From: a virus
DNA: 25,893 nucleotides
Virus record (IMG/VR): IMGVR_UViG_3300031974_005110
Coordinates: 1-25,893 of that record
Direction: 5' to 3' (one strand)
The notes beneath the pieces were generated by a model. It had not been told where the DNA came from and searched no databases. It saw only the letters and a program-made list of their open reading frames with translations. Shown in pieces: positions 1,625 to 21,680 of the stretch (position 1 is its first letter; the number at the start of each line of letters is the position of its first letter). The position numbers were made by a program, and so were the translations under genes.

Positions 1625-3628
1625 ATGGCGAATTGGAAAAAAGTATTAGTATCAGGCTCAGAAATAAGTGTAGCCGGAATAACATCATCACAAGTACCTA
1701 GTGGTACATCTGACGATGATGTAGTAGTATTAGGTGCTAATGGGGAATTTAAAAAAGTACTCCAAACATCTATACAGGGGGTAACAACCGCAACCTTTAA
1801 AATCAGCGGTAGTACAGGTAACGATACATTTGATGCAACAGGAGATACCTTAATCTTTACAGGTAGCCACGGTGCATCAACCTCTATATCCGAACCTTCA
1901 GCTGGTAACACATTAGTTACTGTTAAACTTCCTACAAACACCGTTACTGGATCTCAACAGATTAATATTGCAGATACTATTGGTTATACTAGTTTTAGTT
2001 CCTCATTCGCCGCTAGTATAACTACTAACGAAACAAATATTAGTACTAATGATGCTGATATTACTACCCTACAAGGTAGAATCGAAGGATTAGCAGCATC
2101 TTCTTCCCAATTAACAGCTGCTTCTACTTCCTTTAGCACAGATTTAGCTACTGCTAATAATAATCTAACTAGTATACAAAATAGTATTACCGCCATACAA
2201 AATTTTACTGGTTCTGTTGTTACTAATAACGAAACAGGTAGTTTCTTATTGTCCGAATCTATTGTTGGGACTGCAAATGAAATAACAGTTACTGGTGACG
2301 GTGCCGGGGAAGTAACAGTTGGTCTTCCTGAAAATGTTACTATTGGAGGTAGATTAGAAGCAGGTAAACTTGTAATTCAAGGTGAAACCGTTTCAGATAC
2401 TGCTGCCGCTGTTATATCAGGTAGCACTATTCAAGGTAATGCAACTACTGATATTCATAGATTTACAGGTTCTTTACAAATTACAGGTGCTTTTGAAATC
2501 GACAATGGTTCTAATGATATTAAAATTAATAATATAAGTACAAACGATCAAGCTACTGTTGATGATATTCTTGTTCGTGCAAACGCTACAGGAATAATTA
2601 GCAGAGCTGGTAGTAATATAAAATTAGCAATTTCTGGTGCTTTTGATGAAGTATCCGCTTCTATAGCCGCGGATATTGCTGCTTTAGAAACAACCACAAC
2701 TACTAATAATTCAACTGCAATAGATGCTTTAGAAATAACATCTGGATCATTAGAAGCTAGTGCATCCGCAGGTATTTATTTTAGTGCTAGTGAAGGAGGT
2801 AGTAGCGTAGGATTAGGCCAAAGCTCATCTTTTGTAGCTTCAGGTGATGGTTTAACAGTAGCATACGAAGCTAACGGTAATAATGGTATAATAACATACA
2901 CAGTTGATCCCGCAGCATTAGGTGGTGCTATAGGTGCTTATTCATCCTCAGCCCAATTACAAACAGTATTAGACGATATTTATGTCCCATATACTGATGT
3001 TCCTATTAGTGGTGCTGTACAACTCCAAACACTAGGTTTTATTACATCTAGTACGTTTGATAACTTAACTGGGGTTCCAGTAGGATTAATTTCAGGTGCT
3101 GCAGATGGAGATATTGGAACACAAGCCCAAATTAAAATTAATGATAATGTTATCAACATATCTGGGTTAAGTACAACCGATAGCCCTACATTTAATAACT
3201 TAACAGTTACTAATAACCTTGTAGTAACTCAAGGTACTACTACTATATCAACAGAACAGTTAAATATTGAAGACCAGTTTATATTAATTAACAGTGGTGC
3301 TAGCGGTGGTGATAACGATCCTGAAATGGATGGTGGTGTAATTGTAGATTCGGGTAATGGTAAGGGCTCCTTATTAATGTATAAAAAGGGATATGGAGCT
3401 TGGGCAATTAAAGGTGCTACTGATCCTGCAAACGGTGTTGATTTTGATGAAGCCTCTACAGGTGATTTCCCAGTAGTTCCTGATGTTATAGTAGCAACTG
3501 TAAGTAACGGCACTAATGGTGCTGTTGGTCCTACAGCTGCCCCCTCTTATGGAGCTGCTGGCAGTGACTATCAGAAAGGGCAAATGCATATTAACACTTC
3601 TGATAATACAATCTGGATTTACGTTTAA
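1625..3628 (+). CDS. Large modular tail fibre-like protein (MANWKK family)
   Basis: A 667-residue protein of tail fibre type. The N-terminus MANWKKVLVSGSEISVAGIT is shared with the genes at 3670 and 6618, so it is probably a common virion-anchoring leader. Residues about 118-200 contain heptad-like Asn/Thr/Ile/Leu repeats (TTNETNISTNDADITTLQGR) that look like a trimeric coiled coil. The middle is built from short beta repeats (GSLQITGAFEI, SGAFDEVSASI). From residue 523 the C-terminal module (FNNLTVTNNLVVTQGTTT, then DQFILIN and DGGVIVDSG) is homologous to the C-terminus of the 874-residue neighbour, and the same kind of module is common in marine phage structural proteins. No catalytic motif is visible. 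Whether it is a long fibre, a short fibre or a decoration is not decided by the sequence. Confidence 0.85.
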   Translation: MANWKKVLVSGSEISVAGITSSQVPSGTSDDDVVVLGANGEFKKVLQTSIQGVTTATFKISGSTGNDTFDATGDTLIFTGSHGASTSISEPSAGNTLVTVKLPTNTVTGSQQINIADTIGYTSFSSSFAASITTNETNISTNDADITTLQGRIEGLAASSSQLTAASTSFSTDLATANNNLTSIQNSITAIQNFTGSVVTNNETGSFLLSESIVGTANEITVTGDGAGEVTVGLPENVTIGGRLEAGKLVIQGETVSDTAAAVISGSTIQGNATTDIHRFTGSLQITGAFEIDNGSNDIKINNISTNDQATVDDILVRANATGIISRAGSNIKLAISGAFDEVSASIAADIAALETTTTTNNSTAIDALEITSGSLEASASAGIYFSASEGGSSVGLGQSSSFVASGDGLTVAYEANGNNGIITYTVDPAALGGAIGAYSSSAQLQTVLDDIYVPYTDVPISGAVQLQTLGFITSSTFDNLTGVPVGLISGAADGDIGTQAQIKINDNVINISGLSTTDSPTFNNLTVTNNLVVTQGTTTISTEQLNIEDQFILINSGASGGDNDPEMDGGVIVDSGNGKGSLLMYKKGYGAWAIKGATDPANGVDFDEASTGDFPVVPDVIVATVSNGTNGAVGPTAAPSYGAAGSDYQKGQMHINTSDNTIWIYV

Positions 3629-3669: not shown

Positions 3670-6294
3670 ATGGCGAATTGGAAAAAAATATTATTTGAGG
3701 GAGCAGATATACATGTAACTTCAATTACAGCAAGTAACTTACCTACAACTTCTTCAAATGATTCCACCCTTAAAGTCTTAACTATAGATTCATCTGGTAA
3801 GATTCGTTTCCGACAACAAGGTCAACTTAACCAACAAATAGGTGAGATCACTGGTTCAATAAGTGGTAGTGATGGTACTTTAGTTAATGATTTTGACTTT
3901 AGTGCTCATACCCTTAAGTTTGCTGTATCTAATGAAAATATTTTTGAAATTTCAGCCTCGGGGCAAACAAATACAACTACGGTTAATTTTAGGCCTTTAG
4001 TAGGATACGTTACAAGCTCAGGAGACTTAAACATTATTAGTGCAAGTTCTCTTAACCCCACGCTTGCATCGGGTGATGTTGTTCTCGGGCCATTGGGATT
4101 AGGAGTTGGGGGGCTGGGAGCCGGTTTAGCACCTAACGCTCTTTTAAATAGTTTAGGGGGCGATTATACTACAGCAATTCTTCCTCTTTTACAAAGACAT
4201 TTTGATAATACAACTAATATTAGTAACAATACTAACCAAGTTGATCCAGATTCTCCTACACAAATTACTCAACCACTCTTTGGTAATGTTAATATACCCT
4301 CGTGGAGAGTTGCAAGTAACTTATGGTTAAACCGTGTTTCAACAATTCCCAACGCTAGCGGAGATCTTGGTGACCTTAGCCCAAATGCTGAAACTGTAGG
4401 ACAACACAGTATCTATTGGTTATCAGCAAGTTTAGTAGGTGGATTTCCTAATGGTACTCCATCACTTTCAGCATCGTTCTTTACTTCACCTGGTGGGTTC
4501 TCTTCTAGTATTGATACACTTACAGGTTCTATAGGAACTCTTCTTTTAAGCCAATCTGAATTTAATACTGCTACAGGCAGTATGTTACAAGATCAATTTA
4601 CTTCAAGTTTTGCTTTAGAAAGTAAACTTATATCTAATACTATAAATTCAATTGAAGCAGGTAACATAGATGTAGACCAAGTAGGCTTTGTAAATACTGA
4701 CGAATTAGGAAATACCCTAAACCAGGGTAAAAGAATAAGATTAGGTACCCCAACTAATGACCCTGATATACAAGCTTTCGATAATACTCTTAGAGATTTA
4801 ACTATTGATGGCACATTTACAGCAGATGAACTTGACTTACCTGAATTTGTATTTAATGAAATACAAATTTCTAAAATTAATGGTGGTGTAACTTTTGGTA
4901 CTAGTAGTTTACACACACACAAATATTTAGGTCATTCTTTTGTAACAGGTGGTGGAGTAGAAGTAACTGGTTCTTTTAAAATTGATGATGCACCTGCGGT
5001 TGAAAATAGTGTAGTCACCATGTTAGTAGCAGGCCAAGATGGTATGTCTATTAAAAGACAAACAGTAGGTTTTGACGCTGTTAACCCCCTCCTTTCAAGT
5101 ATGGCAAGCTCTTCTCAAGGAGTATCACAATCATTTGCCACTAGAATTAACGATATACAGAGTCAAATAACTACTGATGGAAACGAAACCACAATTATAG
5201 GCCATTTAACAGCAAGTTATAATGCTTTAACAAGTTCTTATAACCGTGGCATATTATTTGCTACTGCTTCGAATTTATCTAACGCTCAAAGTGATAATAT
5301 TGTAGGTAGTAAAATTGGTCTTAAAAATACTGCTTCTTTTGAGATAGGTCAATTAACATCTCAAACAGGATTAACAAATAAAATTTTAACTGCATCATTT
5401 AATGCCGCTAGAACTGAAATAAAATACCACTTAAATACAAGAGCATTTGCAGACGTTACAGGTATTTATACAGGTTCCGGAACCGCAAATACAGCTGATA
5501 TCATAAGTGATGTTAACAGTTTAAATAGATACGGTAAACGCTCAGAATTAATATTAACGCAAAGTAATACTGCCGCTAATAGAGACTACATAGCCGAATT
5601 AGCTAAGTTCGGTAATGGTCCGGGTCCCGATCTTGGTGGATCTGATGCAAATACTCGTTTTTTAACGGGTTCAGGTGATTTCTCCGATTTAAGTTATCCT
5701 GATGGTACATTTGTAAACGATGCAAATGATAGTACTACCCAAGGTGTTGTAAAGTTTGGTTTAGATCCTGATGGTGATGGATCTGGTGTTAGTGTAATTA
5801 AGTTTGGTGCTACAGGTAGTGAGATGGGTATTGATGGTAATCCCTCATTTGCAGGATTAACATTAACTGGTCAGTTAACAGTTAATGGTACTTTAACACA
5901 AATCCAAACAACCAACTTAAACGTTAGAGACCAGTTTATACTAGTTAATGATGGTGCTACAGTAGATGGTGGAGGTACAAGCGATAATGATAAAGACGGT
6001 GGTATTTTAGTAGACGCAGGTGGTGGATCAGGATCGTTATTTATGTATGACTTTACGGCTAGGGCATGGGGAATTAGAGGTGCCGGTACTGCTAACCATA
6101 CATCGTTTAATGCTTCTTCACAATTATCCCAACCTGTAGTTCCAGACACATATGTTAGAACAATTATTTACGATGAAGGATTCCCACCAATATCGTCTGC
6201 GTCTTTATATGGTAGCTCAAATGGAGATACTAATTTAGGCCAAATGTATGTAGATACTACTACAGATGCAGAGAATGTATACATTTACGCTTAA
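3670..6294 (+). CDS. Very large modular tail fibre-like protein (MANWKK family)
   Basis: An 874-residue fibre-type protein, the largest in the window. It begins MANWKKILFEGADIHVTSIT, paralogous to the 667- and 208-residue proteins, and its first 18 nucleotides are identical to those of the 667-residue gene. The central part (about residues 120-250) is Leu/Gly/Asn-rich, without obvious repeats. Residues about 475-620 contain polar heptad-like helices (SQSFATRINDIQSQITTDGN). From residue 727 the C-terminal module (FAGLTLTGQLTVNGTLTQ, DQFILVNDGA, DGGILVDAGG, ending VYIYA) parallels the end of the upstream gene, which ends IWIYV. A rho-independent terminator follows 24 bases after the stop. This suggests a tandem duplication with divergence of the central part. 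Confidence 0.85.
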   Translation: MANWKKILFEGADIHVTSITASNLPTTSSNDSTLKVLTIDSSGKIRFRQQGQLNQQIGEITGSISGSDGTLVNDFDFSAHTLKFAVSNENIFEISASGQTNTTTVNFRPLVGYVTSSGDLNIISASSLNPTLASGDVVLGPLGLGVGGLGAGLAPNALLNSLGGDYTTAILPLLQRHFDNTTNISNNTNQVDPDSPTQITQPLFGNVNIPSWRVASNLWLNRVSTIPNASGDLGDLSPNAETVGQHSIYWLSASLVGGFPNGTPSLSASFFTSPGGFSSSIDTLTGSIGTLLLSQSEFNTATGSMLQDQFTSSFALESKLISNTINSIEAGNIDVDQVGFVNTDELGNTLNQGKRIRLGTPTNDPDIQAFDNTLRDLTIDGTFTADELDLPEFVFNEIQISKINGGVTFGTSSLHTHKYLGHSFVTGGGVEVTGSFKIDDAPAVENSVVTMLVAGQDGMSIKRQTVGFDAVNPLLSSMASSSQGVSQSFATRINDIQSQITTDGNETTIIGHLTASYNALTSSYNRGILFATASNLSNAQSDNIVGSKIGLKNTASFEIGQLTSQTGLTNKILTASFNAARTEIKYHLNTRAFADVTGIYTGSGTANTADIISDVNSLNRYGKRSELILTQSNTAANRDYIAELAKFGNGPGPDLGGSDANTRFLTGSGDFSDLSYPDGTFVNDANDSTTQGVVKFGLDPDGDGSGVSVIKFGATGSEMGIDGNPSFAGLTLTGQLTVNGTLTQIQTTNLNVRDQFILVNDGATVDGGGTSDNDKDGGILVDAGGGSGSLFMYDFTARAWGIRGAGTANHTSFNASSQLSQPVVPDTYVRTIIYDEGFPPISSASLYGSSNGDTNLGQMYVDTTTDAENVYIYA

Positions 6295-6617: not shown

Positions 6618-7244
6618 ATGCCAAACTGGAAAAAAGTCATTGTATCCGGCAGTAACGCCGTGTTAAATCACGTAACAGCTAGTGGTCACATGTCCGTATT
6701 AGACGGAGGTTTAACTGTAAATACACACACATCTACTACAGAATTAGAAGTTGTAGGAAATATAAGCGCTTCTAGTGGAAATATAACAGGTAATAACATT
6801 ACAGCTGCTAATCAATTAGATACTAAATATAGAAGACTTGACATTACTAATAGTTCTTTAATAGATGATTATAATGGTGATGTAGTGTTTTTTGGTGGTG
6901 AAGGAACAAGTTTTACTCAAGGTTGTATCCATGGATATGACGGTACCAATTGGAATAGAGTAGCTAGCAATGGGAGTAGTGCAGCAGGAACTAATTTTTT
7001 AGCTATAGCACTAGGAAGTAATGCTTCAGATGGGATGTTAATTAGGGGTTTTTATACTAGAGACTTAGTCTTAGGCGCTGGAGGAAGCTCCTTATATTTA
7101 GGCTTAAATGGGACTTTTAACGATGCGCCCCCAACTGGAAATGGTGATTATTCAAGAATTGTAGGACATTTACTTCAACAAGTCGGATCTAATGCTCTAA
7201 TTTATTTTAACCCAAGCCCAGATTGGATCGAAATTGAAGTGTAA
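6618..7244 (+). CDS. Short fibre-like protein (MPNWKK family) with C-terminal module B
   Basis: A 208-residue protein beginning MPNWKKVIVSGSNAVLNHVT, a short member of the same N-terminal family as the 667- and 874-residue proteins. Residues about 45-70 contain the beta repeat VVGNISASSGNITGNNIT. Residues about 84-208 form a domain (NGDVVFFGGEGTSFTQGCIH ... IYFNPSPDWIEIEV) homologous to the C-terminus of the 767-residue protein, which ends IYFNPESSWIELT. The protein is therefore an anchoring leader joined to a receptor-type or trimerising C-terminal head with little shaft. Its stop overlaps the next ATG (TAATG). A minor fibre or tip protein is likely. Confidence 0.8.
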   Translation: MPNWKKVIVSGSNAVLNHVTASGHMSVLDGGLTVNTHTSTTELEVVGNISASSGNITGNNITAANQLDTKYRRLDITNSSLIDDYNGDVVFFGGEGTSFTQGCIHGYDGTNWNRVASNGSSAAGTNFLAIALGSNASDGMLIRGFYTRDLVLGAGGSSLYLGLNGTFNDAPPTGNGDYSRIVGHLLQQVGSNALIYFNPSPDWIEIEV

Positions 7245-10748: not shown

Positions 10749-13052
10749 ATGGCTAGTACAATAATAACAAAAAATGGAACCGGATCAGCATCTCCCTCTT
10801 CATTACAACAGGGAGAATTAGCTATTAATGTTGATAATGGTAAAATATTTTATGGGGCTAAAGGTGGGACTGCTGTTTCAAGTAGTTTTACTTTTGACGA
10901 ATTAAAAGTAGAAGGTAATCTTACCGCCCAGCAATATATAATATCATCTTCAGTTACATATGTTACACAATCATTTAGTAGTGGCTCGACAATTTTTGGA
11001 GATACACAAGACGATACTCATCAATTTACTGGTAGTGTTGATATAACAGGTAGTATAATAGCTACTAACTTAAGTGGCACAAATACTGGTGACCAAGATT
11101 TATCTTCTTATGCTTTAATAGCAAATATTTCTGGTGCTTTTGCAGCCGATAGTGCCTCATTTAGTACTAGAATAACTGCAAATGAAGCTGTAACCTCTAA
11201 AACCTTAATTTCTTCATCAGCACAAGTTGATCATGATCAAACAACCAACTTTAGCGCAGATGAACACTTTACCCAAGCTAACATTACAACTGTTGGTACA
11301 GTAACTTCAGGTGATATAAGCGCAATTTTACCAACAGGTACTGTTTCCGGATCTTCTCAAATCGACCTAGGCTCAGCATCAGGTACCATAGATATTTCAG
11401 ACCAAACCAACTTAGCAGGAGGTACTAATATTACTCTTAGTGATGATACTATAAATCTTGACGCTAATATTAGTTTAACTAGTGTAACTGCTTCAAGCAA
11501 CATAAGTGCAAGTGGTGATATATTTTCTAACAATGCTACTATAACTACTCAATTAACGGCAGCAGGTATAGCATACCCAACAGCAGATGGCGATAATGGA
11601 GACGTGTTAATAACAGATGGCGCTGGTAATTTATCATTTAATAGAACCACAGTATATGCTAATGTAAAAAATGTCCATGGTAGTGAACTAGTAAAAGGCA
11701 TACCTGTCCACGTTACTGGTGCCGTTGGTAATACTAGTGAAGTTGTAGCAGCATCTGCTTCAAATGCTGCTACAATGCCCGCTCACTTTATCCTAAATGA
11801 AACCTTAGCAGATGATGCTGAAGGTTTAGCAATTGCTATAGGTTATATAAATGGAGTTAACACTTCTGGATTTAGTGAAGGTGATACTGTTTATGTAGGA
11901 GCGAATGGTGGTTATACAAATGCTAAACCAACAGGATCTAATTTAATCCAAAACTTAGGTATTGTAGATAAAGTAGATGCTTCAAATGGATCAGGGTTTG
12001 TTTTAGGTGCAGGTAGATCAAACGATGTACCAAATATTTCTCCTGGTTATGCTTGGGTCGGTAATAGTGATAGTGTTGCTACAGCAGTTGCTACCTCATC
12101 ATTTATTCCAGCTGGCACAGTTTCAAGTTCTGCACAAATAGCATCTGATATAAGTGGATCGTTTACGGAAGCATCTGGAGGATTTAGTTCTAGAATAACC
12201 ACTATCGAAGGTGCTGGATATACTACAAATACGGGTACAGTAACTTCAGTAGGTGGAACAGGAACCGTTAGTGGCCTTTCACTTTCAGGTACCGTAACTA
12301 CTTCAGGCAACCTTACTTTAGGTGGTACTATATCAATATCCTCAACCAATATTACAGACGTAGATGCCTTCTCACAAACAGGCACTTATGCTTCATTAAG
12401 AGCCCAGGGTACTACAAAAGGAGATGTTGGCTTAGGTAATGTTGAAAATACAGCATTATCTACTTACACAGGTAACGGAGGTGCTTTAGATAATCAATAT
12501 ATTGCTAATGGTGCTGGTTATTTAACTACAGTTGATATCTCAGACGATACTAATTTAGCAGGAGGCACTAATCTTACCCTGTCAGGAGATACTATAAACC
12601 TTGATGCTAATATTAATTTAACTAGTGTAACTTCTTCAGTTATATTAACAGATACTAGACACCTTCCTAACACTGATGGTTCAGATCAATACTATGGGGA
12701 TGTAGTAAAATTTGGTGGTGGTGGTACCTTAACCCAAGGCAGCATCTATTACCTAAATAGTAGCCAAAACTGGGCCTTAGCGGATGCTAGTGCCGCTTCT
12801 ACTGCTAAAGGTATGTTAGGCATAGCAACTTCTACAGGTATTGAACTTTTAGTTAAGGGTATAGCCAGACATGGAGGATGGGCAGGATTAGGCCACGGTT
12901 CAGTTCTCTATCTATCAGAGACAGCAGGTGAATTAACAACTACTGCCCCTACAACCTCAGGAGCAGTTGTAAGAGTAATAGGGTATTGTACTAATACTAC
13001 TGTTAGAGAAATTTATTTTAACCCAGAAAGTAGCTGGATTGAATTGACATAA
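10749..13052 (+). CDS. Large modular tail fibre protein
   Basis: A 767-residue tail fibre-type protein. The N-terminus MASTIITKNGTGSASPSSLQ followed by QGELAINVDNGKIFYG is a common fibre start. A 36-residue repeat occurs at residues 214-249 and 595-630 (30 of 36 positions identical by eye). A domain at about 300-430 (KNVHGSELVKGIPVHVTGAV, GFSEGDTVYVGANGGY) resembles a head or knob module of marine phage fibres. Residues about 550-570 have TKGDVGLGNVENTALSTYTG, the classic phage tail-fibre repeat. The C-terminal ~130 residues (GDVVKFGGGGTLTQGS ... YFNPESSWIELT) are homologous to the 208-residue protein at 6618. It is coupled by TAATG to the methyltransferase. Host recognition is inferred. Confidence 0.85.
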   Translation: MASTIITKNGTGSASPSSLQQGELAINVDNGKIFYGAKGGTAVSSSFTFDELKVEGNLTAQQYIISSSVTYVTQSFSSGSTIFGDTQDDTHQFTGSVDITGSIIATNLSGTNTGDQDLSSYALIANISGAFAADSASFSTRITANEAVTSKTLISSSAQVDHDQTTNFSADEHFTQANITTVGTVTSGDISAILPTGTVSGSSQIDLGSASGTIDISDQTNLAGGTNITLSDDTINLDANISLTSVTASSNISASGDIFSNNATITTQLTAAGIAYPTADGDNGDVLITDGAGNLSFNRTTVYANVKNVHGSELVKGIPVHVTGAVGNTSEVVAASASNAATMPAHFILNETLADDAEGLAIAIGYINGVNTSGFSEGDTVYVGANGGYTNAKPTGSNLIQNLGIVDKVDASNGSGFVLGAGRSNDVPNISPGYAWVGNSDSVATAVATSSFIPAGTVSSSAQIASDISGSFTEASGGFSSRITTIEGAGYTTNTGTVTSVGGTGTVSGLSLSGTVTTSGNLTLGGTISISSTNITDVDAFSQTGTYASLRAQGTTKGDVGLGNVENTALSTYTGNGGALDNQYIANGAGYLTTVDISDDTNLAGGTNLTLSGDTINLDANINLTSVTSSVILTDTRHLPNTDGSDQYYGDVVKFGGGGTLTQGSIYYLNSSQNWALADASAASTAKGMLGIATSTGIELLVKGIARHGGWAGLGHGSVLYLSETAGELTTTAPTTSGAVVRVIGYCTNTTVREIYFNPESSWIELT
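11388..11495 (+). repeat. Internal 36-codon repeat, copy 1
   Basis: Encodes IDISDQTNLAGGTNITLS and 18 further residues. It matches the copy at 12531-12638 at 30 of 36 amino acids with no length difference. Probably a duplicated fibre shaft or linker segment. Confidence 0.7.
12531..12638 (+). repeat. Internal 36-codon repeat, copy 2
   Basis: Encodes VDISDDTNLAGGTNLTLS and 18 further residues, the second copy of the repeat at 11388-11495 in the same fibre gene. It lies immediately before the C-terminal module shared with the 208-residue protein. Confidence 0.7.
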
Positions 13053-13612
13053 TGAGTTATTTAGATCAAACATTAACATTTACTGATAACAAAATTTGTT
13101 ATGTAGATGGCGATACTGAACTTCAAGTAATGATGGATTGGGAAGATTCTATTATGTCAGCTTCGGCAGCTTATGTATGCCAAAATGGAGGTGATATATT
13201 AGAAATTGGGTTTGGTATGGGTATATCGGCTGGATATATTCAATCACATTCAATTAATTCGCACACCATTATAGAAAATCATCCAGATGTGATTTCTAAA
13301 GCACAAACATGGGCCCAAGGAAAATCAAATATAACTATAGTAACTGGAAGTTGGTACGATGTAAAAAACGATCTAGCAACTTACGATGGGGTATTTTATG
13401 ATACTTGGGGCGATGATAATATGAATCAATTTAGTTCTTCATTATCATCATTAATGAAAGCAGGGGGAGTAGCTACGTGGTGGAACAACGAACCTACAGC
13501 TACTAACTATTATAATATACCTAATATTACTTATGATTCTTATAATGTAGCACCCCCCGAAAATTGTTATTTTAACCATACAACTTACTACTTACCAAAA
13601 TGCCAACGTTAA
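13052..13612 (+). CDS. SAM-dependent methyltransferase, GAMT/RMT2-like
   Basis: A 186-residue class I methyltransferase. Motif I is DILEIGFGMGISAGYIQ (residues 48-64). A strand ending in an acidic residue, HTIIENHPDV (E75), should bind the SAM ribose. The post-motif strand is YDGVFYDTW (D117), followed by the helix SSLMKAGGVATWW. GFGM rather than the usual GxGxG, the upstream MDWED (E31) and YDT are the hallmarks of guanidinoacetate N-methyltransferase and of arginine delta-N-methyltransferase RMT2. In GAMT the Glu of WE and the Asp of YDT contact the guanidinium group, and both appear conserved here. It is shorter than GAMT (about 236 residues), lacking the N-terminal arm and part of the C-terminal half. 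It lies between fibre genes, coupled by TAATG upstream and a 13-base overlap downstream. Substrate unknown; arginine in a virion protein or a guanidino metabolite is inference. Confidence 0.85.
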   Translation: MSYLDQTLTFTDNKICYVDGDTELQVMMDWEDSIMSASAAYVCQNGGDILEIGFGMGISAGYIQSHSINSHTIIENHPDVISKAQTWAQGKSNITIVTGSWYDVKNDLATYDGVFYDTWGDDNMNQFSSSLSSLMKAGGVATWWNNEPTATNYYNIPNITYDSYNVAPPENCYFNHTTYYLPKCQR

Positions 13613-16044: not shown

Positions 16045-18177
16045 ATGGCCGAACAAATAGTATCTCCGGGAGTATTTCAAAGAGAAACCGATCAATCATT
16101 CATAACACCTGCCCCAGTAGAAGTAGGTGCAGCAATTGTTGGCCCAACAGTAAAAGGACCTATCGAACGTCCTACTGTTGTGACTTCCTTTGCTGACTAT
16201 AAAAATAAATTCGGAACAACATTTATTTCTGCTTCCGAAAATTTAGAATTTATGACTTCTATTGCAGTACAAAAGTATTTTGCTAATGGAGGTAATAGTA
16301 TGTTAGTTACTCGAGTAGTATCGGGATCAGGAGATTCTTGGAATCCTGCAACTAGTACTAATATTAATAACAATCTCACAACAGGACTAACTTTTGGTAG
16401 TGGATCTGTAGATGCAACTACGATTGGTGAATCAACAACAGTTAAAATAACAGTAGGTTCAACTGTTGTTAATTTTATAGGACAATCAAACCCTAATACA
16501 GACTCTTCTGACGATTCGGTTAGATTCTTTGATAGAGGATCAACAACAACTCAGTTTGCTAATAACTTTGCAACTGAATTTAACTTAGTTTCAAGTTTAA
16601 GTGGGTTTGTAGCATCAAATAATGGAGCAACAATGATAATATCGGGTGCCGCTGCAGGTACCGCAGGTAACGGATTAGTATTTGCAACAGGTTCTGGTGG
16701 TGACTTTTCAACCCAATTTACTACTGAAGGAGGTACTAATACTACAAACGCTACAAAAGTATTTACCTTAAAAACTATAGGTGAAGGTACAATACTTAAT
16801 GGTACCACAGGTTTAACTGATCAGGGTGAACAATTTTCAGACGGAGGGTTAAAAACTGGTTCAAAAGATAACTTAAGATGGGAAATTAGTGGTGTTAATA
16901 ATGATGCAGGTACATTTAATCTTTCTATAAGAAGAGGTGATGATAATACTAAAAATAAAATCATTTTAGAAACTTTTATAGGATGTAGTTTAGATCCTAA
17001 ATCAGACAATTATATTTCTAAAGTAGTAGGTGATCAGTATACAGATACTTTTGATGCTGAAGGTCAAACATTTATTAGAGTCCAAGGTGAATACCCCAAT
17101 AGATCTAAATATGTATATGTTCATGAAGTAAACACCCCTACTCCTGATTATTTATTAAATGATGGTACTATAGGAACAGATTCAACAGGAACCTCATACT
17201 CAGAAAGCCTACCAGCAGCAAGCAGTGGTTCATTTGCAGGTGCTACTGGTACTAACCTCCCAAATTATGCTGGTGGTTTAAATGCCTTTAAAGATATTAA
17301 TAATACTAATAGCCAAGGATTGGTAGGAACAGATTATACTACAGCACTTAATATTCTTAAAAATACTGACGAATATAGATTTGCTACCCTTACAATTCCT
17401 GGAATGTACCAAGAAGGAAGTAATCACGCAACTGCTGTAGCATCTGCAATTGAATTATGTGAAGGTAGAGGTGATGCATTTTTTATTGCTGATTTAGTAC
17501 CCTATAATTCTACTTTATCAACTGTAACAACAGAAGCAGGTGACCTAAATACTAATTTCGCTGGTACTTATTGGCCATGGGTTCAAGTCCCCTCTTCTGA
17601 ATTAGGTAAAAACGTATGGTGCCCAGCTTCAGTAGTAATGCAAGGAGTTTATGCCGCAAACGATAGAGTTGCTGCTCCATGGTTTGCACCCGCTGGTTTA
17701 AACAGAGGTGGTGTTCCAGTAGTAAGAACAGAATTTAAACTTAACCAAAAGTTAAGAGACACATTATATGATAATAGAGTTAACCCAATTGCAACCTTCC
17801 CAAGAGTAGGTCCAGTTGCTTATGGTCAAAAAACACTTCAAAAGAAAGCAAGTGCCCTTGACCGTATCAATGTAAGAAGATTGCTCATTTCACTTAAGAA
17901 CTTTATAGGTGATACTTCTAAAAACTTAGTGTTCGAACAAAATACTACAGTTACTAGAAATAAGTTCTTAAACGCTGTTAATCCATTCTTAGAATCAGTT
18001 CAACAAAGACAAGGTTTATACGCGTTTAGAGTTGTAATGGATGAATCAAATAACACAGCTGAAGCTATTGACAGAAACCAGTTAGTAGGTCAGATATTCA
18101 TCCAACCAACTAAAACAGCTGAATTTATAATCTTAGATTACACCATTCAGCCAACAGGTGCAACATTTAACGACTAA
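16045..18177 (+). CDS. gp18: Tail sheath protein (T4 gp18-like)
   Basis: A 710-residue contractile tail sheath; T4 gp18 is about 659 residues. The N-terminus SPGVFQRETDQSFITPAPVE, followed by GAAIVGPTVKGPIERP and TSFADYKNKFG, is the diagnostic sheath start. The C-terminal ~130 residues (INVRRLLISLKNFIGDTSKN, FLNAVNPFLESVQQRQGLYA, then IDRNQLVGQIFIQPTKTAEF) are the conserved sheath core domain that makes the inter-subunit handshake. The middle (about residues 100-330) is a variable surface insertion, Thr/Ser/Gly-rich. The gene follows a terminator and a candidate late promoter, and precedes the tail tube gene, the usual order. High confidence. Confidence 0.95.
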   Translation: MAEQIVSPGVFQRETDQSFITPAPVEVGAAIVGPTVKGPIERPTVVTSFADYKNKFGTTFISASENLEFMTSIAVQKYFANGGNSMLVTRVVSGSGDSWNPATSTNINNNLTTGLTFGSGSVDATTIGESTTVKITVGSTVVNFIGQSNPNTDSSDDSVRFFDRGSTTTQFANNFATEFNLVSSLSGFVASNNGATMIISGAAAGTAGNGLVFATGSGGDFSTQFTTEGGTNTTNATKVFTLKTIGEGTILNGTTGLTDQGEQFSDGGLKTGSKDNLRWEISGVNNDAGTFNLSIRRGDDNTKNKIILETFIGCSLDPKSDNYISKVVGDQYTDTFDAEGQTFIRVQGEYPNRSKYVYVHEVNTPTPDYLLNDGTIGTDSTGTSYSESLPAASSGSFAGATGTNLPNYAGGLNAFKDINNTNSQGLVGTDYTTALNILKNTDEYRFATLTIPGMYQEGSNHATAVASAIELCEGRGDAFFIADLVPYNSTLSTVTTEAGDLNTNFAGTYWPWVQVPSSELGKNVWCPASVVMQGVYAANDRVAAPWFAPAGLNRGGVPVVRTEFKLNQKLRDTLYDNRVNPIATFPRVGPVAYGQKTLQKKASALDRINVRRLLISLKNFIGDTSKNLVFEQNTTVTRNKFLNAVNPFLESVQQRQGLYAFRVVMDESNNTAEAIDRNQLVGQIFIQPTKTAEFIILDYTIQPTGATFND

Positions 18178-18217: not shown

Positions 18218-18703
18218 ATGGCGATATTAAGTTCAAATGATATGTTCTATACAGCTTACGAACCTAAGCTGCAAAATAGATTTATATTTTATATAGACGG
18301 TATTCCTGCTTATTTGATTAAATCAGCAGATAAACCAAAATATACTGCTGAAGAAGTAGTTCTCGATCATATTAACGTGAAAAGAAAAGTTAAGGGTAAA
18401 TCTGATTGGTCACCTATTAGCTGTACATTATATGATCCTGTAACCCCTTCAGGAGCCCAAGCAGTGATGGAATGGGTTCGTTTACATCACGAATCAGTAA
18501 CAGGTAGAGACGGTTATTCTGATTTCTATAAAAAAGATATTAGATTTAATACTTTAGGACCAGTTGGTGATGTTGTTGAAGAATGGATTTGTAAAGGAGC
18601 ATATGTTACTAATGCTGAATTTGGATCAGGTGATTGGACTTCATCTACACCAATGGAAATTAGTTTAACTATCGCTATGGATTATGCAATTTTGGACTAC
18701 TAA
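18218..18703 (+). CDS. gp19: Tail tube protein (T4 gp19-like)
   Basis: A 161-residue protein, almost the length of T4 gp19 (163). The N-terminus FYTAYEPKLQNRFIFYIDGI and the sequence PAYLIKSADKPKYTAEEV, then KSDWSPISCTLYDPV and MEWVRLHHESVTGRDGY, match the gp19-type tube family. The C-terminus EISLTIAMDYAILDY is the usual final strand. It stacks as hexameric rings inside the sheath and is the conduit for DNA. It lies 40 bases after the sheath gene with its own candidate promoter, and a terminator follows within about 23 bases of the stop. Confidence 0.95.
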   Translation: MAILSSNDMFYTAYEPKLQNRFIFYIDGIPAYLIKSADKPKYTAEEVVLDHINVKRKVKGKSDWSPISCTLYDPVTPSGAQAVMEWVRLHHESVTGRDGYSDFYKKDIRFNTLGPVGDVVEEWICKGAYVTNAEFGSGDWTSSTPMEISLTIAMDYAILDY

Positions 18704-18725: not shown

Positions 18726-18753
18726 AAGAGGTGCGCAAGCACCTCTTTTTTTT
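18726..18753 (+). terminator. Rho-independent terminator after tail tube gene
   Basis: A 9-bp stem AAGAGGTGC (18726-18734) and GCACCTCTT (18739-18747) closes a GCAA tetraloop, overlapping a run of eight Ts to 18753. A strong stop after the highly expressed sheath and tube genes. Confidence 0.9.
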
Positions 18754-18756
18754 ACA

Positions 18757-18766
18757 TATGTATATG
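18757..18766 (+). promoter_or_regulatory. TATGTATATG motif after terminator
   Basis: TATGTATATG, one base different from the copies at 6347-6356 and 10734-10743, lies immediately after a terminator and 22 bases before the ATG of the gp26-like gene. Candidate promoter restarting transcription; tentative. Confidence 0.35.
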
Positions 18767-18788
18767 CAAACATATAATAAGTTACAAT

Positions 18789-19535
18789 ATGGCAGAAAAT
18801 AAACCAATGTTTCCCACTGAAGAGGTAACATTACCCTCAAAAGGCTTAATTTATCCTCAAAATAACCCTTTAGCTAAAGGTGTACTTGAAATGAAGTACA
18901 TGACTGCTAAAGAAGAAGATATCTTAACTAACGAAAGTTATATTAAAAATGGTACTGTAATCGATAAATTATTACAGGCTCTTATAGTGACACCGATTGA
19001 CTATAATGATTTAATTGTAGGCGATAAAAACGCAATTATGATCGCAGCACGTGTATTAGGGTATGGTAAAGACTATACATTTGAATTAGACGGAGAAGAA
19101 CACACAGTAGATCTTACAGAAATTAATGATAAGTTAATGAAAGAAGAACACCTGTTTGAAAAAGGTAAAAATGAATTTGAATTTACTCTTCCTACTACTA
19201 AAAAAACTATTACATTTAAAATTTTAACCCACGCTGATGAGCAAAAAATAGATTCTGAAATTAAGGGTCTTAAAAAAATCAATAAAAACAACTCCTCAGA
19301 ATACACAACTCGTTTAAAACATACTATTCTATCTGTTGAAGGCGATTATGAACGTAAAACAGTTAGACAATTTGTAGAAAACAGCTTATTAGCAAGAGAT
19401 GCAAGAGCATTAAGGGAATATATCAAAGAAATACAGCCTGATGTAGACTTAACTTATGATCTTGAAACTGCAGCTGGAGACGTGAAAGGCGTTAGGATCC
19501 CAATTGGGATCACGTTTTTTTGGCCTGACTCCTGA
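18789..19535 (+). CDS. gp26: gp26-like baseplate hub / tail assembly protein
   Basis: A 248-residue protein of the T4 baseplate family (gp26 type). The N-terminus FPTEEVTLPSKGLIYPQNNP is followed by GVLEMKYMTAKEEDILTNES, IKNGTVIDKLLQALIV and KNAIMIAARVLGYGKDY, all typical of this family. The C-terminus VRIPIGITFFWPDS is its usual FFWPD ending. By gene order (tube, this gene, overlapping small frame, tape measure) it occupies the place of the tail assembly chaperone of other tailed phages. The stop lies 12 bases after a T7 run (19515-19521), and the next frame is open across it. This suggests a fraction of ribosomes shift and make a longer protein. The family call is sure; the chaperone role is inference. 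Confidence 0.85.
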   Translation: MAENKPMFPTEEVTLPSKGLIYPQNNPLAKGVLEMKYMTAKEEDILTNESYIKNGTVIDKLLQALIVTPIDYNDLIVGDKNAIMIAARVLGYGKDYTFELDGEEHTVDLTEINDKLMKEEHLFEKGKNEFEFTLPTTKKTITFKILTHADEQKIDSEIKGLKKINKNNSSEYTTRLKHTILSVEGDYERKTVRQFVENSLLARDARALREYIKEIQPDVDLTYDLETAAGDVKGVRIPIGITFFWPDS

Positions 19536-19770
19536 GTATAAATTTACTGTATATAATGAAGTACACGACCTAGTTTACTGGGGTAATGGAGGGTTTCTAT
19601 ATTCTGAAGTATATAATATGCCTATACACCTTAGAAGGTATCATATTAGGAAAATAAATGAATATCATGAACAACAAAACGAAGAACATGAAAAAGCTAT
19701 GAGACAATCTGCTCAAGTAGCTAATAGCATACCTAAAACACCTAATATACCAAAAAACTTAAGACGTTAA
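19504..19770 (+). CDS. Overlapping frame, probably a frameshifted C-terminal extension of the gp26-like protein
   Basis: An 88-codon frame whose only initiation codon before its conserved-looking part is TTG at 19504; its first ATG is codon 39. It overlaps the gp26-like gene by 32 bases in the +1 (or -2) frame, across a T7 run. Both frames read FF at the overlap, then diverge to WPDS-stop or GLTPEYKFTVYNEVHDLVYW. The protein continues GNGGFLYSEVYNMPIHLRRY with a basic/acidic helix (EYHEQQNEEHEKAMRQ), a pattern known downstream of tail assembly chaperones. No independent ribosome binding site is visible. Most likely it is joined to the upstream protein by programmed frameshifting, so the start given here is only nominal. 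A separate TTG-initiated or coupled protein is the alternative. Confidence 0.7.
   Translation: MGSRFFGLTPEYKFTVYNEVHDLVYWGNGGFLYSEVYNMPIHLRRYHIRKINEYHEQQNEEHEKAMRQSAQVANSIPKTPNIPKNLRR
19515..19521 (+). other. Candidate frameshift site (T7 run)
   Basis: Codons ACG TTT TTT TGG of the gp26-like frame contain seven consecutive Ts, 12 bases before its TGA stop. A +1 or -2 slip there enters the open 88-codon frame. No obvious stem-loop stimulator was found by eye directly downstream. Confidence 0.5.
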
Positions 19771-19799: not shown

Positions 19800-21680
19800 A
19801 TGGCTAAAAAAGATAATTTAGATTCTATGAATAACACAGCAAAAGAGTTAAAAGCTCTATTTGCTGAATTAGGGGGTTTAGTAGCAGAACTAAACTCTAG
19901 ATTAGAAAGTACGGCGGATGCTACAGGTAGAATAGCTAAAAATACATCTAGAACTAAAGCAAACCAAAAAGATTCAGGTTCCTTAAGTAAAGAATTTGTA
20001 AACAGTGAAAAAAATCGTGAAGCTCTCCAAAAGAAAGTTTTAAGTATGAACGGTGATCAGCTTAAATTTTTAAGAGAATCACTAAAAACTGGTAAAGGGT
20101 TAAGTAAAGAAAAACTAAAAGAATTAGGATTAAACCAACATTTAGGTAATGTTTGGAATGCTTCTGCTAGAACTCAATTAGAATATTTAGGAATATCTAG
20201 ACAATTAATATTCTTAAAAGAAACAGAAATTAAATTACAAAAAACGGCTAATAGGTTAGTTGATGGTTTAATTCAAGGATTTATGAAAGCAGATGAAGAA
20301 ACTGCTAAAATGGGTAGAAATCTAAACCTATCTAGATCAGAAGCAGCTTCCTTAAAAATGGAATTTGCTCAAGTTGCGTTAGCATCTGGGGATGTAGCTA
20401 TTAATTCTACTAGATTAGCAGAAGCTAATGCTGATCTTAATTCTCAGTTAGGAACAGCTGTTGTGTTTAGTGGTGAAATGTTAAAAACAACCTCTAAATT
20501 AACTAAATTAGTTGGTTTATCAGCAGAAGCTGCTGGTAGTTTAGCATTCCAAGCTCAACGTTCTGGTCAATCTGTAAGAGAGGTAGAAGAAAACGCTTTA
20601 GCAGCATCATATGAATTACAACAAGGAGCAGGAGTTGCTCTTAACTTAAAAGATGTATTAGAAGCTTCTGGTAAAGTTTCAGGTCAATTAAGAGCCCAAT
20701 TAGGAGCAAATCCTGAAGAGATAGCTAAAGCAGTTACAAAAGCTAAATTATTAGGAGCAGAATTAGAAGATTTAGCAGCAGCAGGTAAACAATTACTTGA
20801 TTTTGAATCAAGTATTGAATCAGAACTAGAGGCTGAATTATTAACAGGTAAACAACTCAACCTTGAAAGAGCAAGGGCCGCAGCCTTAGCAGGTGACCAA
20901 GCAACTTTAGCTGATGAATTAGCTAAAAATATGGGTACATTTAGTGATTTTACTAAAATGAACACCCTACAACAAGATGCCTTAGCTAAATCAATGGGTA
21001 TGAGTTCTGATCAATTATCTGACATGCTCTTTAAACAAGAAACTATGGGTATGAACGCCCAACAGTTAAGAGCCCAAGGTAAAGATGAATTAGCAGATAA
21101 GTTAGAACAAGTAAGTGCCCAGGAAAAAATGAACCTTTTAGCCGAAAAGTTCCAAGGCATTATGGGTGATTTAGCAACAGCATTTACTCCTCTCCTTGAT
21201 ACAGTTGCAGGTATAGCTACTTATTTTGCTTCAATGCCCGGAGTTATAGGAGCTATAGTATCAGTTATGGCAACTTTATTAGTAATGCAAAAAGCATTAG
21301 CTATCAGATCACTTATTGTTGCTACTGCTAAAATTTTTGGTGAAAACGCTAAATTTGGCCCTGGTGGTATTGCAATAGCGTTAGGAACAATAGCAGCTAT
21401 GGGTGCTGCTGTAGGAGCCGCTAGAGCAACAAACATGGCACAGGGTGGTATAGTGAAACCTAAAGCCGGAGGTACAATAGCACGTATTGGTGAGGCAGGT
21501 CAACCTGAAGCAGTAATCCCATTAAATAAAGCAAAGCAAATGGGATTTGGTGGCGGTGGAGGAACACCACAACCCATAATAATTAATAACACGTTTGATG
21601 CTTTTGCTGCTTCAAATGGCAATGGTAGAAAAGGACTTGGAGGAGCTCAAGAAATGCAGGCAAGTCCTACATTTGCTTAA
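19800..21680 (+). CDS. Tail tape measure protein
   Basis: A 626-residue tape measure protein. It is mostly helical, with long Ala/Leu/Lys/Glu-rich stretches (about residues 1-450). A hydrophobic region at about 462-543 (FTPLLDTVAGIATYF, VIGAIVSVMATLLVMQ, then GGIAIALGTIAAMGAA) is typical of the membrane-active part. The C-terminal motif AQGGIVKPKAGG then IGEAGQPEAVIPLNKAKQMG (residues 547-582) is the hallmark of tape measure proteins (GEAG-EAVIPL). A Gly-rich and Ala-rich tail closes the protein. It follows the gp26-like gene and its extension in the usual order. It should set tail length and assist DNA entry, functionally equivalent to T4 gp29. Length of about 600 residues predicts a tail near or under 100 nm (rule of about 0.15 nm per residue). 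Confidence 0.92.
   Translation: MAKKDNLDSMNNTAKELKALFAELGGLVAELNSRLESTADATGRIAKNTSRTKANQKDSGSLSKEFVNSEKNREALQKKVLSMNGDQLKFLRESLKTGKGLSKEKLKELGLNQHLGNVWNASARTQLEYLGISRQLIFLKETEIKLQKTANRLVDGLIQGFMKADEETAKMGRNLNLSRSEAASLKMEFAQVALASGDVAINSTRLAEANADLNSQLGTAVVFSGEMLKTTSKLTKLVGLSAEAAGSLAFQAQRSGQSVREVEENALAASYELQQGAGVALNLKDVLEASGKVSGQLRAQLGANPEEIAKAVTKAKLLGAELEDLAAAGKQLLDFESSIESELEAELLTGKQLNLERARAAALAGDQATLADELAKNMGTFSDFTKMNTLQQDALAKSMGMSSDQLSDMLFKQETMGMNAQQLRAQGKDELADKLEQVSAQEKMNLLAEKFQGIMGDLATAFTPLLDTVAGIATYFASMPGVIGAIVSVMATLLVMQKALAIRSLIVATAKIFGENAKFGPGGIAIALGTIAAMGAAVGAARATNMAQGGIVKPKAGGTIARIGEAGQPEAVIPLNKAKQMGFGGGGGTPQPIIINNTFDAFAASNGNGRKGLGGAQEMQASPTFA

Follow-up and report, generated by a model that had tools for sequence, protein, structure and literature searches.

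The window, by which we mean the whole stretch of DNA analysed, is a 25,893-base metagenomic virus fragment from a marine phage (IMG/VR record IMGVR_UViG_3300031974_005110). After its tail sheath and tail tube genes comes an ORF resembling gp26 of T4-like phages, which overlaps a second open frame and is followed directly by a putative tape measure gene (Table 1). Annotated tape measure genes occupy the same position in phages immuto, SP-15 and LIS04, and the order tail tube, TAC-N, TAC-C, tape measure is common to annotated relatives. In a family profile comparison the putative tape measure ORF gave no family match, its name resting on position and synteny. Homology and position together suggest that the locus encodes a tail assembly chaperone (TAC), and we refer to its 0-frame product as TAC-N, to the extension in the second frame as TAC-C and to the predicted fusion of the two as TAC-NC.

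Table 1 Features of the chaperone locus and its neighbours (window positions).
Feature	Position	Strand	Basis
Tail sheath gene	16045–18177		
Tail tube protein gene, upstream of TAC-N	18218–18703	+	PHROG 4542, E 2e-25
TAC-N, gp26-like tail assembly chaperone, predicted 0-frame short product, 248 aa	18789–19535	+	PHROG 150 match; profile chain to T4 gp26; position between tail tube and putative tape measure genes
TAC-NC, predicted 326-aa fusion via one +1 shift (protein P0001)	18789–19770	+	
Last codons before the slip codons, with strong synonymous bias across relatives (non-T preceding base, GAG-rich and GGG elements)	19479–19514	+	Codon-column analysis
Frameshift site TTT TTT TGG (0-frame codons)	19515–19523	+	Direct reading; codon conservation in 114 non-redundant relatives
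TAC-C, +1-frame extension GLTPEYKF...NLRR, 82 aa after the slip, predicted to be translated only as a fusion	19522–19770	+	+1-frame conservation; dN/dS; profile chain to T4 gp51 C-terminus
0-frame stop TGA terminating TAC-N	19533–19535	+	
Putative tape measure gene	19800–21680	+	Position; synteny with annotated tape measure genes of immuto, SP-15 and LIS04

Several further features of the window were noted. A strong terminator-like hairpin with a T run lies between the tail tube and TAC-N genes (18726–18747), and a sigma-70-like match follows it at 18751–18778; a search for the late-promoter motif TATAAATA found no enrichment. Elsewhere, a methyltransferase-like protein (13052–13612; PF13649, under the curated cut-off) is encoded within a cluster of tail-fibre-like genes, and the ORFs at 1625–3628, 3670–6294 and 6618–7244 have a common N-terminal motif, M(A/P)NWKK(V/I), and are likely to be paralogous fibre-type structural genes.

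The gp26-like ORF ends in GITFFWPDS, and the 0-frame codons at the junction read GGG ATC ACG TTT TTT TGG CCT GAC TCC TGA. The original prediction held that this gene overlaps an open +1 (equivalently −2) frame across a T7 run 12 bases before the stop. Direct reading of the window bore out the overlap, with the second frame open from 19487 to a stop at 19768–19770, and the distance was essentially right, T7 (19515–19521) being followed by 11 bases and then by TGA. A one-base skip within the T run produces a single 326-aa protein, ...GITFF-GLTPEYKFTVYNEVHDLVYWGNGG.... Since about 0.8 occurrences of TTTTTTTGG are expected in the window by chance, the motif alone means little, and it is its conservation that counts.

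In a first scan comprising 80 relatives at 62–91% identity, TTTTTTTGGCCTGAC or TTTCTTTGGCCTGAC was present in all 79 that had a readable junction; later scans covered 218 loci, partly overlapping these relatives. Alignment of the overlap, a check put forward with the original prediction, showed TTT-TTT-T or TTT-CTT-T followed by GGCC in nearly all IMG/VR relatives. Codons were counted in 114 non-redundant representatives of all window-type +1 relatives, which are not independent and correspond to about 58 effective sequences after clustering at 75% identity. The first slip codon is TTT in 108 representatives and TTC in six, the second TTT in 100 and CTT in 14, and the A-site codon that follows them TGG in 109, TTC in three and TAC in two. 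At the second position Phe is always written TTT and Leu always CTT (14/14), a codon used for 20% of Leu in the rest of the gene, while the A-site TGG of 109/114 representatives compares with a total of nine Trp codons elsewhere across all 114 TAC-N genes. In every representative the second codon, TTT or CTT, is followed by T (TTT T in the window), which makes +1 re-pairing of the P-site tRNA possible. At loci L140, L145, L155, L111 and L166, A-site TGG has changed to TTC or TAC and the +1 frame is still open.

The +1 ORF is open across the whole extension in every window-group relative with a long enough contig, and the isolates Flavobacterium immuto, Microcystis Mel-JY01, Bacillus SP-15, Listeria LIS04 and Streptococcus GXN1 share its overlap with the gp26-like ORF, as do most A2 and L085-type relatives. 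Among same-length pairs, the median dN/dS of the extension was 0.33 in its own frame, against 1.10 and 1.31 when read in the wrong frames; over all its aligned pairs the extension gave 0.55, and TAC-N gave 0.27. On these substitution patterns selection acts on both frames, and the +1 ORF evolves under purifying selection. Conservation extends to both the end of the 0 frame, WPD, and the start of the +1 frame, GLT. We considered whether the invariance of TGGCCTGAC marks a separate RNA signal and set this aside as unneeded, since the overlapping WPD and GLT codons fix most of its bases, so that invariance alone is no evidence of a further signal.

As for the identity of the two parts, TAC-N matched PHROG 150 (‘baseplate hub’) at E 6e-10. 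PF12322, which matches SP-15, P-SSM2 and T4 gp51, gave no match to the window TAC-N at E≤0.01. A chain of profile comparisons linked N1 (window TAC-N family) to N2 (SP-15 type) at 100%, N2 to N3 (cyanophage gp26) at 98.5% and N3 to T4 gp26 at 97.7%; for TAC-C, the chain ran from T1 to T2 (SP-15 type) at 96%, from T2 to T3 (cyanophage gp51-like ORFs) at 89% and from T3 to the gp51 C-terminus at 87%. Direct profile comparison of the window family with T4 gp26, gp51 and gp28 gave no match (gp26/gp51 probability <1%), nor did that of the extension with the T4 gp51 C-terminus (0.4%), and homology to the T4 proteins rests on the intermediates. On this basis TAC-N is placed in the gp26/T4_baseplate family, with TAC-C probably related, less directly and through intermediates, to the C-terminus of T4 gp51; the annotation of KVP40.0327 records a similarity to this C-terminus. 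PF12322 spans only residues 1–201 of T4 gp51, leaving its C-terminal part over as an extension, and the matches of cyanophage gp51-like ORFs fall in the last part of PHROG 150. On this evidence T4 gp51 resembles an in-frame TAC-NC, and T4 gp26 resembles TAC-N. The match of the fusion protein P0001 to PHROG 150 stops at the junction. A search of the PDB for sequence relatives with a solved structure found none.

For each of 236 codon columns, the choice of codon for the encoded amino acid was set against the background of the gene itself, and the eight most anomalous synonymous columns all lie at most 13 codons upstream of the slip. T stands directly before the two slip codons in only 3/114 representatives, and Asn at this position is encoded by AAC in 42 of 43 cases, against a background of 26%. 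SD-like purine motifs (GGAGG and similar) occur upstream in 64/114 of the +1 relatives compared to 7% of control windows, most of them ending 22–27 nt before the first slip codon, whereas the SD of prfB acts at 3-nt spacing; it is uncertain whether the hosts use SD pairing. A check for stimulatory elements returned a near-invariant UGG in the A site, an SD-like motif at an unusual distance and no 3′ structure, as the search for a conserved 3′ RNA stem or pseudoknot found none (window z = 0.49; no pairs by alifold, which does not model pseudoknots).

Given the slip site of the relatives, the selection and the overlap, a programmed frameshift in the chaperone gene before the tape measure, as originally predicted, is the best-supported reading, now refined to +1. 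Very probably, +1 ribosomal frameshifting at P-site UUU (or CUU) before UGG yields a minor TAC-NC, giving a two-form tail assembly chaperone. The majority of ribosomes would finish TAC-N at the stop at 19533–19535, and a minority would slip one base forward while tRNA-Phe occupies UUU 19518–19520 in the P site with UGG waiting in the A site. The tRNA-Phe would re-pair on UUU 19519–19521 and reading would go on as GGC CUG ACU CCU..., producing TAC-NC, that is, TAC-N with a TAC-C domain. The analogous lambda gpG/gpGT system suggests that TAC-N would form a coat on the tape measure protein and that TAC-C would bring in tail tube subunits. That slippage occurs, its efficiency, its direction, +1 rather than −2, and the chaperone role are what we infer. 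The family can do without frameshifting, as T4 has gp26 and gp51 in two separate genes.

A −2 shift would reach the same final frame with one additional Phe, and the T7 run of the window allows −2 re-pairing equally well; moreover, a −2 TAC frameshift is known in Mu, reportedly described by Xu et al. in 2004. Under +1 the predicted junction peptide would have two Phe (ITFFGLTPEYK), the window protein reading ...GITFFGLTPEYK, and under −2 it would have three (ITFFFGLTPEYK), with the protein reading ...GITFFFGLTPEYK. What separates the two directions is the variation among relatives: TTC TTT TGG (L292–L306), TTC TTT CGT (L084 GXN1, L179, L181, L189 and L192) and AAC TTT CTA (L085) re-pair well only after +1 and would mispair after −2, which argues for +1 and leaves the −2 reading unlikely.

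We also considered whether TAC-C is started independently, at TTG 19504, at the CTG in GGCCTGAC or by termination-reinitiation, which we judge very unlikely. TTG 19504, the mechanical start of the 88-codon ORF named in the original prediction, is shared by the window and its close relatives, but 26 of the 114 non-redundant relatives contain no ATG, GTG or TTG between the preceding stop in the +1 frame and the twelfth codon of the ORF. The near-invariant CTG is explained by the overlapping WPD and GLT codons, and it is replaced by CTA in Mel-JY01 and CAG in L148 and absent in SP-15/GXN1. The claim that the second frame has no ATG ahead of its conserved part held, the first ATG of the window being post-slip codon 33, inside the conserved core. 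A separate second-frame gene with its own ATG, named in advance as the observation that would speak against frameshifting, was seen in L302 and L307, where a separate TAC-C ORF begins at a real ATG a few bases past the TAC-N stop (L302:2203–2234; L307:2194–2225), but only in this one nested lineage, whose slip site is degraded too (TTC TTG TAT; TTC CTT TGG CCA). The TAC-N tree places the two inside the +1 clade, next to the +1 member L156 and well supported, and frameshifting appears to have been lost there with both parts kept; the separate TAC-C ORF parallels the separate genes 26 and 51 of T4.

RNA polymerase slippage on T7, giving mixed mRNAs that are translated normally, would fit the T7 run of most relatives; however, relatives with TTTCTTT (14/114) or TTCTTTT (6/114), including the isolate immuto, have the same +1 ORF with no run longer than four T, and the Leu codon of the TTTCTTT relatives is always CTT, a prfB-type slippery codon, which makes this explanation highly improbable. 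It is scarcely plausible that the hairpin GATCCC-AATT-GGGATC (19496–19511), which a terminator scan detects, forms an intrinsic terminator with T7 and that the overlap is a by-product, because the stem is restricted to close relatives, is missing in L055, L058, L100 and further relatives in which the slip site is retained, and shows no conserved pairing by alifold. A homopolymer sequencing or assembly error splitting one gene, conceivable for a T run in a metagenomic fragment, has a negligible probability and is already refuted by the relatives: well over 150 contigs, along with complete isolate genomes, show the same arrangement, and the WPD at the end of the 0 frame is itself conserved.

With +1 frameshifting as the preferred reading for the window clade, the predicted direction of the shift differs across relatives. 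In a cyanophage-like group, all 80 of 80 sites read T TTT TTC and the extension lies in the −1 frame, whereas in the window a G precedes the T7 run and the extension is +1; the T before the site is found in 80/80 of that group and in 3/114 window-type relatives. In the cyanophage-like loci L212–L291, an SD-like motif ends 10–11 nt before TTT TTC in 70 of the 81 sequences tested, a spacing that is usual for stimulated −1 shifting, and KVP40, PA5oct, Atu_ph07 and LR756511 are also −1. The A2 relatives L186, L187, L191, L195–L198, L200, L201 and L205 have a +1 extension with the usual site replaced (by TTA TTY AAT CCC A, or others), and the L195–L205 types possibly slip at CCC A. A quick TAC-N tree required at least four changes among +1, −1 and separate genes, its deep branches being long and its root unsure. 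With moderate confidence, we propose that the same chaperone gene has switched frameshift direction: cyanophage-like lineages would use −1 (site T_TTT_TTC, SD-like motif 10 nt upstream), the window clade and the relatives among Bacillus and Streptococcus phages +1 (non-T, TTT TTT or TTT CTT, then T/C), and one nested lineage a separate ORF in place of frameshifting. Under this proposal the preceding base may help to choose the direction, and the upstream purine element may tune +1.

Chaperones made by frameshifting are already known from genes ahead of the tape measure, and Xu, Hendrix and Duda are said to have described the tail assembly chaperone frameshift of lambda gpG/gpGT and its analogues in 2004. 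For T4-like phages, the 2022 study of Vladimirov and colleagues reportedly assigned gp26 and gp51 and described frameshifting in several groups. The expectation that a gp26-type case would notably extend the rule holds only in part, as TAC genes had already been identified in T4-like phages by Vladimirov, Gautam & Davidson (2022, Virology 566:9), a study cited in PMC10885494 and PMC12846349. The latter cites it for −1 signals of the polyT kind in the TAC-N genes of T4-like phages, the opposite of the +1 direction proposed for the window. Apparently new are the +1 shift in a broad group, the contrast in the base that precedes the slip site, the upstream synonymous constraint and the nested lineage with a separate gene. 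The records of immuto, SP-15, LIS04 and Mel-JY01 give ‘baseplate hub’ with a truncated hypothetical protein or nothing, and none annotates a frameshift; recognising the +1 site would correct these annotations and show a two-part chaperone retained despite changes of mechanism between −1, +1 and separate genes. The locus also offers a compact natural system for what sets frameshift direction on near-identical Phe-Phe codons.

Compared to lambda gpG/gpGT, the locus shares a small gene before the tape measure, short and extended forms (predicted for the window), an out-of-frame extension and a conserved slippery site, but lambda-type sites are mostly −1 (−2 in Mu), whereas the window site would be +1 and its TAC-N is of the gp26/T4_baseplate family. 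With T4-like gp26 and gp51 it shares the relation of TAC-N to gp26 and, probably, that of TAC-C to the C-terminal part of gp51; T4, however, has separate genes and the cyanophage and KVP40 relatives −1 sites, in contrast to the +1 of the window clade. The +1 site of influenza A PA-X, UUU CGU, a motif that appears in PMC4317690 and other papers, is the same codon pair as in GXN1-type relatives, although the window gene is unrelated, would be read by a bacterial ribosome and has UUU UGG. With the CUU U site of prfB (RF2), also +1, the locus shares a slip codon followed by U, and the 14 TTT CTT TGG relatives would use the identical CUU-U re-pairing; prfB, however, has a stop codon in the A site, whereas the window has the sense codon UGG and no SD at 3-nt spacing.
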